NCBI GenBank assembly: GCA_022779945.1
Contig: JALEYA010000089.1
Coordinates: 1 to 36,684, forward strand
Source of the DNA: Oscillospiraceae bacterium
GTDB lineage: Bacteria; Bacillota; Clostridia; Oscillospirales; Acutalibacteraceae
DNA length: 36,684 nt
Reading direction: 5' to 3'
The position numbers were made by a program, and so were the translations under genes. Positions 14,907 to 26,220 of this stretch are shown piece after piece. Numbering within the stretch: the stretch's first letter is position 1; every line of letters starts with the position of its first letter. Under the pieces are notes generated by a model, which saw only the letters and a program-made list of their open reading frames with translations, was not told the DNA's origin and made no database searches.

Positions 14907-17012
14907 TCAGTTCTTGATTCCGACATCGGGCAGGGATTCGTTGCCGAGACCTCTTTCAAATCCGGTATAGGTGCAGTTTTCGACAAGAACGGAAAAACCG
15001 TTTTCTGCGCTGGTGTTGCCGATGATTCCGCCGAACCAGTTCTGATAGAACGGGGCGTTCTCGTTGACAATTTCTTTCTTTCCGGTGTTTTTGCAGTCGG
15101 TGATTTTCAAGACTGCGTTTTTCGCCTGAACGTTTTTCTCTTTTGACTCGTCGTGATCGGTTGTCAGAAGAAGACCGCGGCCGACACGGCCGACAATACC
15201 GCCGGCTATCCGCGAAATGGTCATGATTTTGGCCTCTTCTTCTGTCATTTTGTCTGCAGCTGCCGTGATAGAAAGCGTACCGCTGTTGGTGCATTCGGAA
15301 AGAACGGTCGGAATGTCCTTCATTCCCCAGTTGCCGAGAATGCCGCCGATATATCCGTTTGTGGAACCGGTGGTGATTTTACCGCTGTTTTTGCAGTCGG
15401 AAATGGAAACCGAAAGGTTTTTGCCCATGTCAAGGGAAACCGGCATATCCATAAAGCTGATGATACCGCCTGCGTGTAAAGTCGTGTTGATCTCACCTGT
15501 ATTTTCACACTCTTCAATCACAATATGGCTGTTTGACGGCGAACTATCCATCATCCAATAAGAAATGATGCCGCCGCAGTGCTGTCCGTCGGAGGAAAGA
15601 GCGCCGGAGTTTTTGCAGTCCTTGATGGTAACATCGCCCGACGTGCTCATGAAGTTTGAAATAATACCGCCGACCGTGCCTTTGGATAAGTCCGCTGTGT
15701 TTTCACAGTCCCTGATTACGATGCTTTCACCGTCTTTGTTTTTACCGATTGCGTACAAATAACCGATGACACCGCCGGAATACTCGACCGCCGCAACCGT
15801 ACCGCTGTTGGTGCAGTCGGAAACAGTCACCGTGTAAAGGTTACGGTTGTCCGATAACTGACCGATGATGCCGCCGGCGTAAAGCTGTCCTTCAACCGTG
15901 CCGCTGTTTTCGCATTTGTAGACTGCTGCTTCCCGGCTCATGTATTTTTCGCCGCCGGTGGAGGAGAAAAAGAGAGTTCCGATGATGCCGCCGGCAACAG
16001 CATGGTTGCTTTCCTCGGTTGTTTTGCAGCGCAAGGTGCCGGTGTTTTTACAGTCGGACACGGTACCGTCATACATCATACCCGCAATACCGCCGACAGA
16101 ATCGACATTATCGGCGGCGAAGTTGATTGTACCGTTGTTTATACACTTGTCGATATTGCCGTGGCAGCTGCCGATGATACCGCCGAGGTACCATTGTGCA
16201 TGGTCTTTGACTTGTGTAATCGTACCGGTAAAGGTACAGCCGGAAATGGAGGAGTAGCGGGTTTCTCTTTCTTCGTTCTCGTCTTTTTTGTCGTTGAGAC
16301 CGCTTACTACACCGCCGAAAGACTGTCCGACGATACCGCCGGTGAGGGTGTCATAGCATGATATAACGGCACTGCTATTGCAGTTTTCAATGGCTCCGGT
16401 ATCCGTCAGCACGCCGGCAATACTGCCGAGTGTTCCGTTCACTCCCGAAACGGCAAAATAGGATTGGCTGATCGTGACGTTCTTTACCGTACCGGCAACT
16501 CTGGCAAACAGACCGTAATTTTCGCTTGTGTCTTTGCAATTCGTATTGATATAAAGGCCGGAAATCGTGTGTCCGTCGCCGTCAAATACACCTGCAAAGT
16601 CGTCGGTTCCGAATCCGATCGGCTGCCAGCTGTATTCCGGCGCCTTGGTTTCCCACTTGTCAAAATCCGCCGTATCGTTGACAGTAATATCATCGGTCAG
16701 GACATAGCAGGCTTTAACGTAGTCTTTTTTGCGGGTTTCGGAATCGGAAACGATTCTTTCGTGAAGCAACACCAGTTCAGCGGCGTTGGAAATCTGATAG
16801 GGATTGCTTTCGGTTCCGTCGCCGCCGGCAAAGTCGGAAGCCGGTGTGATATACTTGGCTTCGGGCAGTTCACGGACTTCATACTCATATTGTACGGCTT
16901 CGGTCTGAGATTCGTTTGTTGCTTCTTCTGTTGTCTTGCTGTTGCTGCCGCACGCTGTCATAGCGGAAATCAGCAGAACCAGAGACAGGAGAAGGACGAG
17001 GATTCTTTTCAT
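14907..17012 (-). CDS. Surface lipoprotein with GLUG-like/beta-helix repeats
   Basis: Lipobox LLISAMTACGS; about a dozen units alternating C(x)NSG and GGI(I/V)G. Confidence 0.85.
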   Translation of the reverse strand: MKRILVLLLSLVLLISAMTACGSNSKTTEEATNESQTEAVQYEYEVRELPEAKYITPASDFAGGDGTESNPYQISNAAELVLLHERIVSDSETRKKDYVKACYVLTDDITVNDTADFDKWETKAPEYSWQPIGFGTDDFAGVFDGDGHTISGLYINTNCKDTSENYGLFARVAGTVKNVTISQSYFAVSGVNGTLGSIAGVLTDTGAIENCNSSAVISCYDTLTGGIVGQSFGGVVSGLNDKKDENEERETRYSSISGCTFTGTITQVKDHAQWYLGGIIGSCHGNIDKCINNGTINFAADNVDSVGGIAGMMYDGTVSDCKNTGTLRCKTTEESNHAVAGGIIGTLFFSSTGGEKYMSREAAVYKCENSGTVEGQLYAGGIIGQLSDNRNLYTVTVSDCTNSGTVAAVEYSGGVIGYLYAIGKNKDGESIVIRDCENTADLSKGTVGGIISNFMSTSGDVTIKDCKNSGALSSDGQHCGGIISYWMMDSSPSNSHIVIEECENTGEINTTLHAGGIISFMDMPVSLDMGKNLSVSISDCKNSGKITTGSTNGYIGGILGNWGMKDIPTVLSECTNSGTLSITAAADKMTEEEAKIMTISRIAGGIVGRVGRGLLLTTDHDESKEKNVQAKNAVLKITDCKNTGKKEIVNENAPFYQNWFGGIIGNTSAENGFSVLVENCTYTGFERGLGNESLPDVGIKN

Positions 17013-17336: not shown

Positions 17337-18140
17337 TCAGATAACTTTCGAAAGGAAGTCCTTCGCTCTGTCCGATTTCGGATTGTCAAAAAACTCCTTC
17401 GGATCGGCTTCTTCAATGAATCTGCCCTCGTCCATAAACATGATGCGGGTTCCGACCTCTTTGGCAAAGCCCATTTCGTGCGTGACGACAACCATCGTCA
17501 TGCCCTGATCGGCAACCTCCTTCATCAGGTCGAGTACCTCGCCGACCATTTCGGGGTCAAGCGCTGACGTCGGTTCATCGAAAAGAATCACGTCGGGGTT
17601 CATGGCAAGCGAACGGACAATGGCGACTCTTTGCTTCTGACCGCCGGAAAGACTGGACGGATAGACGTCCGCTTTGTCCTCGAGTCCGATTCTTTTAAGA
17701 AGTTCTCTTGCTCTTTCCTCCGCCTCTTTTGTGATTTGCTTGACGGATTTGTCGGTCAGCTTTTTGCGCCTTGCCTTTTTGCCGACATAGACAGGGGCAA
17801 GCATGATGTTTTCAAGGACGGTTTTGTTGTTGAAAAGGTTGAAGTGCTGGAACACCATTCCCATTTTCTGGCGGTGGACGTTGATGTTGACCTTGGGATT
17901 GGCGATATCGACGCCGTGAAAGATGATACTGCCGCTTGTGGGGTCTTCCATGCAGTTGAGACACCGAAGAAACGTACTCTTGCCCGAGCCGGAAGGACCG
18001 ATGACAACGACCTTTTCACCTTTTCTGATGGTGGTCGTGATACCCTTTAAGACTTCGTTGTCACCGAAAGACTTTTTCAGATCCTTGACTTGGATGAGTG
18101 CACCGCCTTGCCAGACGTCGTTTTTATTTACTTCTTTCAC
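17337..18140 (-). CDS. Polar amino acid ABC transporter ATP-binding protein (GlnQ-like)
   Basis: Walker [10 protein letters not shown], signature [34 protein letters not shown]. Confidence 0.96.
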
Positions 18141-18831
18141 TCTTCCTCAGCCTCCTCTCCATAAGCTTGACAAGCAACGTGATGATGCAGACGATTACGA
18201 TGTAAATGATCGCCATCGCAAGATACGGCACCATGTATTCGTAGGTGGCCGAACCGATATTCTGGAACGCAAGATAAAGATCCTTGGCACCGACAAAGGA
18301 AACGACCGAGGTTTCCTTGATGAGAGCGATAAACTCGTTTCCGAGGGTCGGAAGAATGTTCTTGACCGCCTGCGGAATGACAATTTTGATCATCGCCGCC
18401 GAATAGCTGAGTCCCACCGCACGGGCACCCTCCATCTGACCTGGATCAACCGACAGAATGCCGGCACGCATCATTTCCGAAATATACGCGCCGCTGTTGA
18501 GGCCGAAAACCCAGATAGCAACGACGACCGAGGACAGTTTGACGCCGATAAGCGGCAGAAGAACATAATAGAAAACAAGAAGCTGAACGACCATCGGCGT
18601 ACCGCGGAACAGTCCGACGTAAAAGCTGCAAAAGCCGTCAAGAATCCGCGGCAAAAGCTTATACTTCGGCAAAACACGAATGGTGGCGATGACAAGACCG
18701 ATCAGAATGCCGATCAGAAGACCAGATACAGCAAAAATGACGGTATTGCGAAGGCCGATAAGGACCTCATTGTAACCGCCCAAGTCAAAGAGTATTTCAA
18801 AAAATAGAAATAATTTATCATAAAAATACAT
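18124..18831 (-). CDS. Polar amino acid ABC transporter permease
   Basis: His/Glu/Gln/Arg/opine permease signature [37 protein letters not shown]. Confidence 0.96.
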
Positions 18832-18900: not shown

Positions 18901-19788
18901 TTACTTTCCGTTGTAGGTGTCAACGATACGGCCTGCCGGAGCGGCGTCGATCATAACGTAGTCGATGTTGCCGTTGATCAGATCCTGAACGGCGAGAGCA
19001 CCGTTGTCATAACCCTGACCGGTAACGGCAAGTCCATCGAAGCCCCAGTCAGCGTCGCCCTTTACATAGTACTGAGCGGTGGTGCCGTTCTGATAACCGA
19101 TCTTCTTGGTGCTGTCGAAGCCCTTGAGGATTGCTTCGGCTGCGGCTGCGTCCTTGCAAGCGTCAAAGGTGGTGTCATCTGCCTTTGTGATGAGCATCTG
19201 AGAAGCCTGATAGTAGGAATCAGAGAAGGTCACCTGTTCTTTTCTCTTTTCGTTGACGGTAAGACCTGCCATGGCGATGTCGCACTTATGCTGACCGACG
19301 GAAAGGCAGACTGCGTCAAACTTCATGTTGCTGATAACAAGCTCCATGCCGAGTTCTTTGGCAAGAAGGTCAGCGATTTCCATATCGATTCCGTAGTAGG
19401 AATCTCCCTCCATGTATTCAAACGGCGGGAACTGAGCGTTGGTGGCAACAACAAGCTGCTCTTTCGAGCTGTCCTCTGTTGCGGAAGTAACAGGGGTCGG
19501 AGTGCCGTCGCCGAAATACTTGTTGCAGATTTCGTCAAAGGTGCCGTCCTTCATGATCTTGGCGATGAAGGTGTTGACCTTTTCAAGAAGCTCGGGCTGA
19601 TCCTTGTCAATGCCGAAAGCGTAATCCTCGTCGGTAAGCTTAACGTCAACAAGCTTGACTTTTGCTTCTGTCGCTGCTGCGGTTGTGTCGCCTTCTGCTG
19701 CTGTTGTGGTTTCTCCGCTGTTGCCGCCGCAGGCTGCCAATGAAAGTACCATAACGAGGGCAAGGAGAACGGCTAATACTTTTTTCAT
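18901..19788 (-). CDS. Amino acid ABC transporter substrate-binding lipoprotein with circularly permuted SBP_bac_3-type domain
   Basis: Lipobox LSLAACGG; family C-terminal segment (KLVDVKLTDEDYAFGI...DGTFDEICNKYFG) precedes the family N-terminal segment (LVVATNAQFPPFEY...). Confidence 0.9.
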   Translation of the reverse strand: MKKVLAVLLALVMVLSLAACGGNSGETTTAAEGDTTAAATEAKVKLVDVKLTDEDYAFGIDKDQPELLEKVNTFIAKIMKDGTFDEICNKYFGDGTPTPVTSATEDSSKEQLVVATNAQFPPFEYMEGDSYYGIDMEIADLLAKELGMELVISNMKFDAVCLSVGQHKCDIAMAGLTVNEKRKEQVTFSDSYYQASQMLITKADDTTFDACKDAAAAEAILKGFDSTKKIGYQNGTTAQYYVKGDADWGFDGLAVTGQGYDNGALAVQDLINGNIDYVMIDAAPAGRIVDTYNGK

Positions 19789-19990
19789 GTTCTTTTCCTC
19801 CAAAAAAATAAATTGTACGTCCTCGGGACATTACTATAGCTCATATTCTAACACCGAATCGGGAATAAGTCAACTGTTACTTGCATTATTTTGCAGAAAA
19901 AATGCAATTTTATGTATAATATTCAATTAAATCCACTTCGGGCGGTCAAGAATATGCAATTTAGCTAATAAAAATCGGGGCGAAATCCGT

Positions 19991-22754: not shown

Positions 22755-24410
22755 TTATTTCCATGATGAGTTGAGCTGAACCGTTCTGTTAAATATTATT
22801 TTATCAGAAGTTGATGATTTGTCAACACAGAAATAGCCCTGTCTCATAAACTGGAACGTATCGCCCGGTTTTACATCACGAAGTCCGCCTTCAAGACGGC
22901 AGCCGCTAAGCACGACAAGCGAATCGGGGTTCAGGTTGTCCTTGAAGCTGCCTTTGGATTCGTCGGACGGATTTTCGGCGTTGAAAAGGCGGTCGTACAG
23001 TCTTGCTTCAAACGGTACGCTGTCTTTGGCACTGACCCAGTGAAGCGTGCCCTTGACCTTTCTTCCGTCGGGGGAGTTGCCGCCGCGGCTTGCCGGATCA
23101 TAGGTACAGTGAACGGCGGTAACGTTGCCGTTTTCGTCCGTGTCGTAGCCCACACATTTTACGAAGTAGGCACCTCTGAGTCTGACCTCATTGCCGGGGA
23201 AGAGGCGGAAATACTTTTTGACTGGCTCGATCATGAAGTCCTCTTGTTCTACAAAGATTTCCTTTGAAAACGTCGTTTTTCTGGTTCCCATTTCGGGTCT
23301 GTCCTGATTGACGGGAAGCTCAAGTTCTTCGGTCTGATTTTCGGGGTAGTTGTCGATGATGACCTTCAAAGGACGAAGTACCGCCATGCATCTCGGAGCA
23401 TTCTTGTTCAGGTCATCTCTTACACACGCTTCCAGCAGTCCGAAATCGACCACGCTGTAAGCCTTGGAAACGCCGACGCGGTTGATAAAATCTCTGATTG
23501 CCGCCGCCGGATAACCGCGTCTTCTCATGCCGCAGATCGTCGCCATTCTCGGGTCGTCCCAGCCGTCCACGATGCCTTCTTTAACAAGCTGTAAGCATTT
23601 GCGCTTACTGGTCAGGCAGTAGTTGAGGTTGAGTCTTGCAAACTCGATTTGTCTTGACGGATTCGGGAGTCCAAGCTCCTTTAAGAACCAGTCGTAAAGC
23701 GGTCTGTGGTTTTCAAATTCGAGTGAGCACAGAGAATGGGTCACGCCCTCTTTGGTGTCCGACAGCGGGTGAGCGAAGTCGTAAAGCGGATAAACGCACC
23801 ACTTGTCTCCCGTTTGATGATGCGTAACGTGAGCGATACGGTAAATGACCGGGTCACGCATATTCATGTTCGGAGATGCCATGTCGATTTTGGCTCGAAG
23901 CACTCTTGCGCCGTCGGGGAACTCCCCGTTTGTCATGCGGGCGAACAGATCGAGATTTTCTTCGATGCTGCGGTTGCGGTAGGGGCTTTCCTTGCCCGGC
24001 TCGGTGAGCGTACCTCTGCTTTCCCGGATTTCGTCGGCGGAAAGATCATCGACGTAAGCCTTGCCGAGCTTGATGAGCTTGATTGCACACTCATGGATAA
24101 AATCGAAATAGCTTGAAGCGTAAAGCACTTCGTTCCATTTGTAGCCGAGCCACTCGATGTCCTCTTTGATGGCGTCCACATATTCGGTGTCCTCTTTTGA
24201 CGGGTTGGTGTCGTCAAGCCGGAGATTGCAGAGTCCGCCGTATTTTTCGGCGATGCTGAAGTTGATCTGGATTGCCTTGGCATGGCCGATATGAAGATAG
24301 CCGTTCGGTTCGGGCGGAAATCTTGTCTGCACATGGGTATATACGCCGTTTTTCAGGTCTTCATCAATAAAATCATGGATGAAGTTTGAAGTCACTGTCA
24401 TTTCTTCCAT
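22755..24410 (-). CDS. glnS: Glutaminyl-tRNA synthetase
   Basis: [29 protein letters not shown] (KMSKS-like); start at MEEMTV after aaaggaac. Confidence 0.94.
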
Positions 24411-24429
24411 TGGTCTGTTCCTTTCCGGT

Positions 24430-26094
24430 TTACGCTTTGTAAAATGCAAGAGCGGTTTTCATTCTGGCTTTCACTTTGTCTTCGCCTAAAATCTGCATGA
24501 TGGAATAAAGATCGGGGGTGTTTCTTCTGCCTGTCACGGCAATACGGATTACCGTTGAAACATCGCCGACGTGACCTTTGTAAAGGTCGGGATTTTTCTT
24601 GTATTCCTTGACGTTCGGCGTGTAGCCCAAAGGCTCGCAAAGATCCTTGATTCCTGCGAACCATTCGTCCTTGCTGTCATCGGGCTTATATCTTCCGATA
24701 TAAGCCGAAAGAATCTCTTTCGCCATATCGGCGGTAATATTTTCGGGCATTTCGCTGTAATTGTTTTGATAAAGCTCATCAAAATAATACGCAATATACG
24801 CGCGGATTTCGTTGAATTTTGCGATATCCTTTCTCGGCTTCGGTGTGTCCCGGTCAACCGAGAAGATCGCTTTTGCATACTCTGTATCACGGCTTAACAG
24901 CTCATAAAGCTCGCTGTCAAAGTCCTTCGCCCACGAAAGCGCGTAGGACAGCACCTGTTCGGCGGTCATGACGCTGATGACGTTTTTGCTGACGTCGTTG
25001 AGCTTCGTCAGATCAAACAGCGCACCGCTGACGCTCATCTTTTTCAGATTGAACGGAAACTCACTCTGCGGTGCTTTCGGGTTGGCTCTTCGCCAGTCCT
25101 CAAAGTTCGAGTTGGCAAGCGTCAGCAGGTAGTCGATAACGCTTTCCTTCGGGTAGCCCTGCTCGGCGTAATAGGTGACCGCCGCTTCGGGATCCTTTCT
25201 CTTACTGAGCTTACGCTTTCCGCCGTTTTCTTCTTTCATGATCGGCGAAATGTGCGCATACTTCGGTACACGGAAGCCGCAGGCCTTGAAAAGCTGAATA
25301 TGAAGCGGAACGGAGGAAATCCATTCGTCGCCTCTTATGACGTGCGTTGTTCTCATGAAGTGGTCGTCCACCGCATGGGCAAAATGATAGGTCGGAATTC
25401 CGTCGGTTTTTAAAAGAACCACGTCCTGTATGTTTTCGGCAATTTCAATCTTGCCTTTTATCAGGTCGTCAAATTTGATCTTGCCGTCCTCTCTGCCCGG
25501 TGAGCGAAGCCGTAAGGTGTACGGCTTTCCGCTTTCGATCAGGGCTTTCTGCTCGTCAAAGGTGAGATCGCGGCACTTTGCCCATTTTCCGAAGTAGCCC
25601 TTGATTGCCGTACCCTCTTCTTCCTGCTTTTCACGAAGAGCGGACAATTCTTCTTCGGTGCAGAAGCACGGATAGGCAAGCCCCTCGGTTACCAGTTTCT
25701 TGACAACAACATGGTAAATCCCGGCGCGGTGGCTTTGCTGATACGGACCGTAGTCGCCCTTTTCTTGGTTGAAGCCGACAACACCTTCGTCAACCGTCAC
25801 GCCGAAAGCGTTCAGTCCCTTGATGATTTCGGAAACGCCGTCCTCGATCTCACGCTTTTTGTCGGTGTCCTCGATTCTTAAAATAAACACGCCGTCCGTC
25901 GTCTGTGCGTTCAGCTTGGATATCAGAGCGGCAAACAGTCCGCCGATATGAAGAAAGCCGGTCGGACTCGGGGCAAAACGGGTTACTCTTGCGCCCTCTT
26001 TCAGCGCGCGGGGCGGAAACTGCTCTTCAAGCTGTTCCACCGTTTTATGAACATCCGGAAACAAAAGCTCCGCTAGTTTTTCAAAGTCGTTCAA
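24430..26094 (-). CDS. gltX: Glutamyl-tRNA synthetase (probable TTG start)
   Basis: [31 protein letters not shown] to 26109, GGGAGG SD favours TTG at 26094. Confidence 0.94.
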
Positions 26095-26220
26095 TGTGAA
26101 TCCTCCCATGTATAAACGATTGATTTATAATCCTATCTATTATCTCAAATTTCGGGATAAATAGCAATAGGGTAACGGCAATTTTTCTGTGCTTTTCTTG
26201 AAAGAGCGGACAAAAACCGC

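Follow-up and report, generated by a model that had tools for sequence, protein, structure and literature searches.

The window, by which we mean the whole analysed stretch of 36,684 nucleotides, contains a minus-strand open reading frame (ORF) at positions 18901–19788. It encodes 295 amino acids followed by a stop codon and has no interruption. From the ORF, phmmer, and profile and custom HMM matches, we annotate it as the gene for a circularly permuted SBP_bac_3 lipoprotein, a substrate-binding protein (SBP). The ATG start codon lies at 19788 on the minus strand. A ribosome-binding site can be read directly 8 nt before it (19797–19801, minus strand; GGAGG on the coding strand, CCTCC on the forward strand). 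Residues 1–20 (19729–19788, minus strand) form the signal peptide and lipobox, with LAAC at residues 17–20. The lipobox cysteine, Cys20, is invariant across a 53-sequence alignment. Hence, the SBP has the signal peptide and lipobox cysteine of a lipoprotein. A search of the region upstream of the SBP gene for known RNA elements found none.

Two partner genes share the strand of the SBP gene. The first encodes a single PAAT-type permease (18124–18831, minus strand) that scores 70.3 bits against TIGR01726, the HEQRo 3-TM domain model, for which the cut-off is 42.2. The second, recognised by profile matches, encodes a GlnQ-like ABC ATPase (17337–18140, minus strand). Hence, the operon has the HEQRo-type permease and GlnQ-like ATPase of a PAAT importer. 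An earlier sequence-only reading had described one uninterrupted ORF in an SBP-permease-ATPase operon; both parts of that description hold. Directly 3' of the ATPase gene, on the same strand, a gene at 14907–17012 encodes a 701-residue lipoprotein with GLUG-type repeats (PF07581). Upstream of the SBP operon, at 22755–26109 on the minus strand, are adjacent GlnRS-like and GluRS-like genes for class I E/Q-type tRNA synthetases.

SBP_bac_3 proteins have the collinear segment order D1a–D2–D1b. In the window protein the order is D1b–linker–D1a–D2. Briefly, phmmer searches of the PDB aligned residues 112–285 with residues 12–171 of 4zv1 (AncQR), and residues 41–94 with residues 180–233. E. coli GlnBP (1ggg) likewise matched as two swapped pieces, the early window segment corresponding to residues 171–223. 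We also built an HMM of the canonical order from 23 canonical relatives. This was matched against a 300-residue version of the ORF, the start of which is five residues longer than that of the 295-residue protein. Residues 44–97 of this version matched HMM positions 203–256 (E = 2.6e-12) and residues 107–297 matched positions 28–205 (E = 6.6e-57). Taken together, the two matches form one complete complement in rotated order.

Consistent with this, PF00497 matched the window SBP in two stretches, at 120.3 bits against a gathering cut-off of 26.4. The sequence-only reading had placed the normally C-terminal piece behind the lipobox and expected two partial PF00497 matches. Phmmer, PF00497 and the 23-relative HMM all agree with it. 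A full-length collinear PF00497 match, which that reading had named as contrary evidence, was not found, and no canonical family gave such a match to the window SBP. Domain models silently split permuted SBPs: of the NCBIfam SBP models that matched the window protein, none scored above its curated cut-off. These are GlnH/ArtI/HisJ/LAO-type models, of which TIGR01096 was best (121.2 against 256.35), and the GlnH model scored 110 against 303. In both sequence and fold comparisons, the top matches are type II amino-acid SBPs rather than Type Ic (Tp0684-like) proteins. Judged by its segment order, the window SBP is a permuted homologue of SBP_bac_3 that lies outside its canonical membership.

The permuted protein can be divided into four parts behind its signal peptide and anchor. 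Residues 44–94 (19507–19659, minus strand; phmmer and HMM) are the canonically C-terminal piece, now N-terminal, and comprise a small-lobe strand, hinge 2 and the large-lobe segment D1b. Residues 95–110 (19459–19506, minus strand; alignments) form a linker from the canonical C-terminus to the canonical N-terminus. This linker has a family-wide conserved pattern, (G)DGTPxxVxSAxxDxSK(D/E)Q. Residues 111–191 (19216–19458, minus strand; phmmer and alignments) are the canonical N-terminal large-lobe segment D1a, beginning LVVATNAQFPPFE. Residues 192–295 (18904–19215, minus strand; phmmer and HMM) contain hinge 1 (192–196) and the small lobe D2, now C-terminal. In GlnBP, the large lobe spans residues 5–84 and 186–224, the small lobe spans 90–180, and the hinges are at about 85–89 and from 181 (PMC13229503). 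Through the phmmer alignment, these hinges correspond to window residues 192–196 (hinge 1) and 52–56 (hinge 2). The new N-terminus is within the small lobe, about 10 residues ahead of hinge 2, and the new C-terminus closes with the helix preceding the small-lobe strand into hinge 2. Hence, by alignment, the permuted SBP retains both hinge crossings, and its large lobe is one unbroken stretch, D1b–linker–D1a.

The ligand-contact residues of SBP_bac_3 (Arg, Asp and the G(T/S)T motif) are present. Arg182, Thr236/237 and Asp281 do not vary in either the 27- or the 53-sequence alignment, and lie within the regions aligned to AncQR. From knowledge of the family, we take Arg182 to be the arginine that contacts the ligand alpha-carboxylate, Thr236/237 to be the G(T/S)T motif and Asp281 to be the small-lobe aspartate. 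Among the 53 aligned sequences of the permuted family, Cys161 is invariant and Cys211 nearly so; the window SBP also has Cys169. These three residues possibly form a disulfide or have another role.

AlphaFold2, run with the 53-sequence alignment, gave an overall pLDDT of 89.2 and a pTM of 0.77, with pLDDT of 96–98 for residues 41–80. Low definition was limited to the signal peptide and anchor linker. Foldseek matched the model to ArgBP/GlnBP-type amino-acid SBPs, with about 184 of about 226 residues aligned; this alignment is sequential and so blind to permutation. The model supports a single chain that is predicted to form a self-complete flytrap fold. Alternatively, the N-terminal D1b could supply the missing part of the large lobe in an adjacent molecule, generating a functional oligomer by domain swapping. 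This is topologically possible, and in the multi-SBD arrays described below terminal half-domains must find each other. However, the conserved linker is short (about 16 residues) and spans points that are close together in canonical SBPs, and AlphaFold2 folds the single chain confidently. We consider such intermolecular complementation highly unlikely, and favour a chain that completes itself.

A permuted order could arise artificially. The window is a single contig from a draft assembly of 262 and might be an assembly or binning chimera of a metagenome. The sequence-only reading had regarded the permutation as natural and functional, had named misassembly as the result that would overturn this, and had proposed a survey of orthologues. 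Among 146 related genomes, 29 carry a full-length collinear homologue of the permuted protein. When one genome was scanned for each species, 80 loci with 60–77% identity were retained, and all 80, including that of the cultured Blautia sp. Marseille-P3201, had the same segment order. In a class-level scan, homologues of at least 399 bits occurred in 25 of 390 genomes, three of them single-contig assemblies. When 399 genomes were sampled across the phylum, the permuted family was confined to the class of the window. A plasmid search with the window SBP gave partial canonical-type matches only. The SBP-permease-ATPase order was conserved in 78 of the 80 loci; in the other two, one or both partners were absent from the fetched stretch. 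The same order is thus present in independent genomes of many species, including isolate and single-contig assemblies. This rules out misassembly of the window SBP, and the probability of a chimera is negligible.

A broken gene must also be considered. Here, residues 44–94 would be a relic of an upstream SBP, fused to an SBP that is truncated at its C-terminus and does not work. The expected route to permutation, by tandem duplication and loss of ends, could traverse such a state. We compared the window gene with those of four relatives. For the mature protein, pN was 0.13–0.15 and pS was 0.54–0.75, and the relocated D1b segment was constrained like the rest. Hence, the permuted coding sequence is under purifying selection. 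Furthermore, the segment classification shows that permuted proteins keep exactly one complement. Together, these observations rule out a pseudogene or relic. The family is also spread over many Clostridia families, with the operon kept and a confident model, which makes a broken gene extremely improbable. We conclude that the permutation is genuine and natural, since the order recurs in independent genomes, the operon is kept, selection is purifying and the model is confident. The same evidence strongly suggests that the permuted SBP is functional.

We classified ORFs by segment order in loci fetched by similarity to the window protein; in this biased sample, where a few places are counted repeatedly, 154 ORFs were type A (window-like cut), 22 were type B and 29 were canonical. 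Type A proteins are cut in the small lobe, immediately ahead of hinge strand 2, and mostly start at HMM positions 203–208. The type B cut, at HMM positions 128–134, is in the small lobe right after the strand leaving hinge 1. Both clusters of cuts fall inside the small domain of GlnBP, using published domain limits (PMC13229503).

For phylogenetic trees, every sequence was rotated into canonical order beforehand. Permuted proteins were dispersed among canonical ones. Type A proteins formed five groups: the window family, L181–L186, L187–L189, L204/L205 (the same genes as L047/L048) and L049–L053. L181–L186 is sister to canonical L200 (support 100/94), L049–L053 groups with canonical L069 and L132 (100/100), and L204/L205 is nested in canonical orthologues of the same genus (100/98). 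L069 (G000:C248) is the other SBP_bac_3 protein of the window genome; it is canonical, and sister to the separately permuted L049–L053.

The trees could mislead. All permuted proteins might descend from one permuted ancestor in a single ancient event, with their scatter an artefact. The type A cut is indeed nearly identical in all groups. In addition, some pairwise AU tests for separate origins gave modest values, which are optimistic since the groups were picked after tree inspection: p = 0.028 for the window family and L181–L186 as a clade, and p = 0.014 for L181–L186 and L187–L189. However, the AU test rejected a single type A clade (lnL difference 364, p = 8e-71) and a single type B clade (p = 0.0049). 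Strongly supported branches require at least five changes for type A and at least two for type B, and three of the type A groups each join canonical proteins, as described above. A single ancient permutation is therefore unlikely. We favour repeated origins: three for type A are secure and five are most likely, while the trees support an origin of type B in at least two groups.

One permutation is recent and occurred within the genus of the window. A single orthologous SBP is canonical in genomes G004, G012, G013, G016, G019 and G028, is permuted in G020 and G022, and has canonical outgroups. The permuted G022 gene, L205, and the canonical genes of G016 (L210) and G013 adjoin the same upstream gene, which by its sequence is probably asnA. 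BLASTN comparison of G022 with G016 showed collinearity upstream (81.5%), in the promoter and signal peptide (70%), in D1a and D2 (76%) and in the downstream permease region (81%). D1b DNA lies at 1264–1388 in G022 and at 2005–2129 in G016. Hence, at the DNA level, D1b of G022 has shifted from the 3' end to directly behind the signal peptide. The linker of the permuted orthologue consists of the canonical C-terminal tail, then the canonical post-lipobox N-terminus. This is the scar expected of in-frame tandem fusion and loss of complementary ends; direct relocation of the segment is also possible. L204 and L205 need not have been permuted separately (monophyly p = 0.23). Recurrence, a second cut point and recently permuted syntenic orthologues in the same genus take the permutation beyond the scope of the sequence-only reading.

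Several SBD-permease fusions, in which the SBD arrays have the type B phase, are possible INTERMEDIATES. These arrays start mid-SBD, continue with whole inner SBDs and have the complementary half last, before the TMD. L230, L231, L234 and L235 contain one whole inner SBD and L229 contains three; the L234 fusion additionally includes the ATPase. The end halves must complete each other around the inner domains. L046, L194 and L195 are the version with zero inner copies; in these, the permease domain is attached directly to a permuted SBP of type B, so that their TMD is joined via the small lobe. We had considered whether tandem-SBD fusions were mere junction look-alikes. This was dropped, since inspection shows phase-shifted arrays. 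The series connects tandem SBDs (GlnPQ-like) to single permuted SBPs, and its members look like possible intermediates; the opposite direction, with arrays growing out of an already permuted protein, is just as possible. All phase-shifted arrays were type B, with no type A-phase array seen. Among the loci examined, we found no type A intermediate, in which an extra D1b would precede a complete SBP. A separate protein, L232 (G006:C136; 597 residues), has a zinc-ribbon-like motif at its N-terminus as well as two canonical SBDs, with no transporter domain afterwards.

The simplest interpretation of our data, and one we hold with considerable confidence, is that the window gene encodes a complete but circularly permuted type II binding lipoprotein of a polar-amino-acid ABC importer, and that such permutations are recurrent in Clostridia. 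The conserved linker of about 16 residues joins the canonical C- and N-termini, and the new termini are in the small lobe before the hinge 2 strand. By analogy with canonical relatives, a polar amino acid would bind between the lobes, which would close, dock on the permease homodimer and deliver the ligand. Unlike these relatives, the permuted protein would carry its lipid anchor on the small lobe, not the large one. The trees support repeated origins among Clostridia. Two cut points are involved, each in the small lobe beside a hinge strand. The likely route would be in-frame tandem fusion of SBP copies, with complementary end pieces then lost. The idea that the relocated tether is the trait favoured by selection is speculative. 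More broadly, and with a good deal of doubt, we suggest that in gut Clostridia the type II SBPs for amino acids may fluctuate between the canonical form and two permutations through phase-shifting of arrays, and that permuted forms may be kept for a large-to-small-lobe move of the tether that alters docking or delivery.

Circular permutations are usually regarded as rare, old, single events. Here, a single family has probably undergone permutation some five times at the first cut point and two or more times at the second, including a recent case within a genus. Recurrence, a recent syntenic case and possible intermediates together open the mechanism and the selective value of circular permutation to direct testing. 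For the design of SBP-based biosensors, the two cuts are naturally tolerated.

The closest known proteins are GlnBP/GlnH, ArgBP and AncQR (PF00497, type II). The window SBP belongs to the same family, shares their lobes, hinge positions and the residues that contact the ligand, and has the same kind of PAAT permease and ATPase as partners. It differs in that its segments are rotated, and in that its termini and lipid anchor are in the small rather than the large lobe. The permuted order was found in none of the best-matching solved chains (phmmer against the PDB, and Foldseek). In GlnPQ-type importers, an array of tandem SBDs is covalently joined to the TMD (PMC8025302), a plausible raw material for permutation. 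The arrays described here differ from these; they begin and end mid-SBD, in type B phase, so that the two end halves would have to make up one SBD around whole inner ones. Searches of openly licensed literature found no description of a permuted SBP_bac_3, and Tp0684 (TpMglB-2) was the sole natural permuted SBP (PMC4990184). Relative to Tp0684, the different fold type, the recurrence and the within-genus variation are new; an earlier mention elsewhere is possible. Tp0684, of Type Ic or Cluster Bc, is a natural circularly permuted and lipid-anchored SBP, also found in Gram-positives, and its authors proposed a connection to membrane tethering (PMC4990184). It is a glucose-binding type I protein with three hinge segments, in which the cut adds a fourth crossover (PMC4990184). 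In contrast, the window SBP belongs to a type II amino-acid family, has a different cut site and retains two crossovers, and its permutation is recurrent at two cuts.
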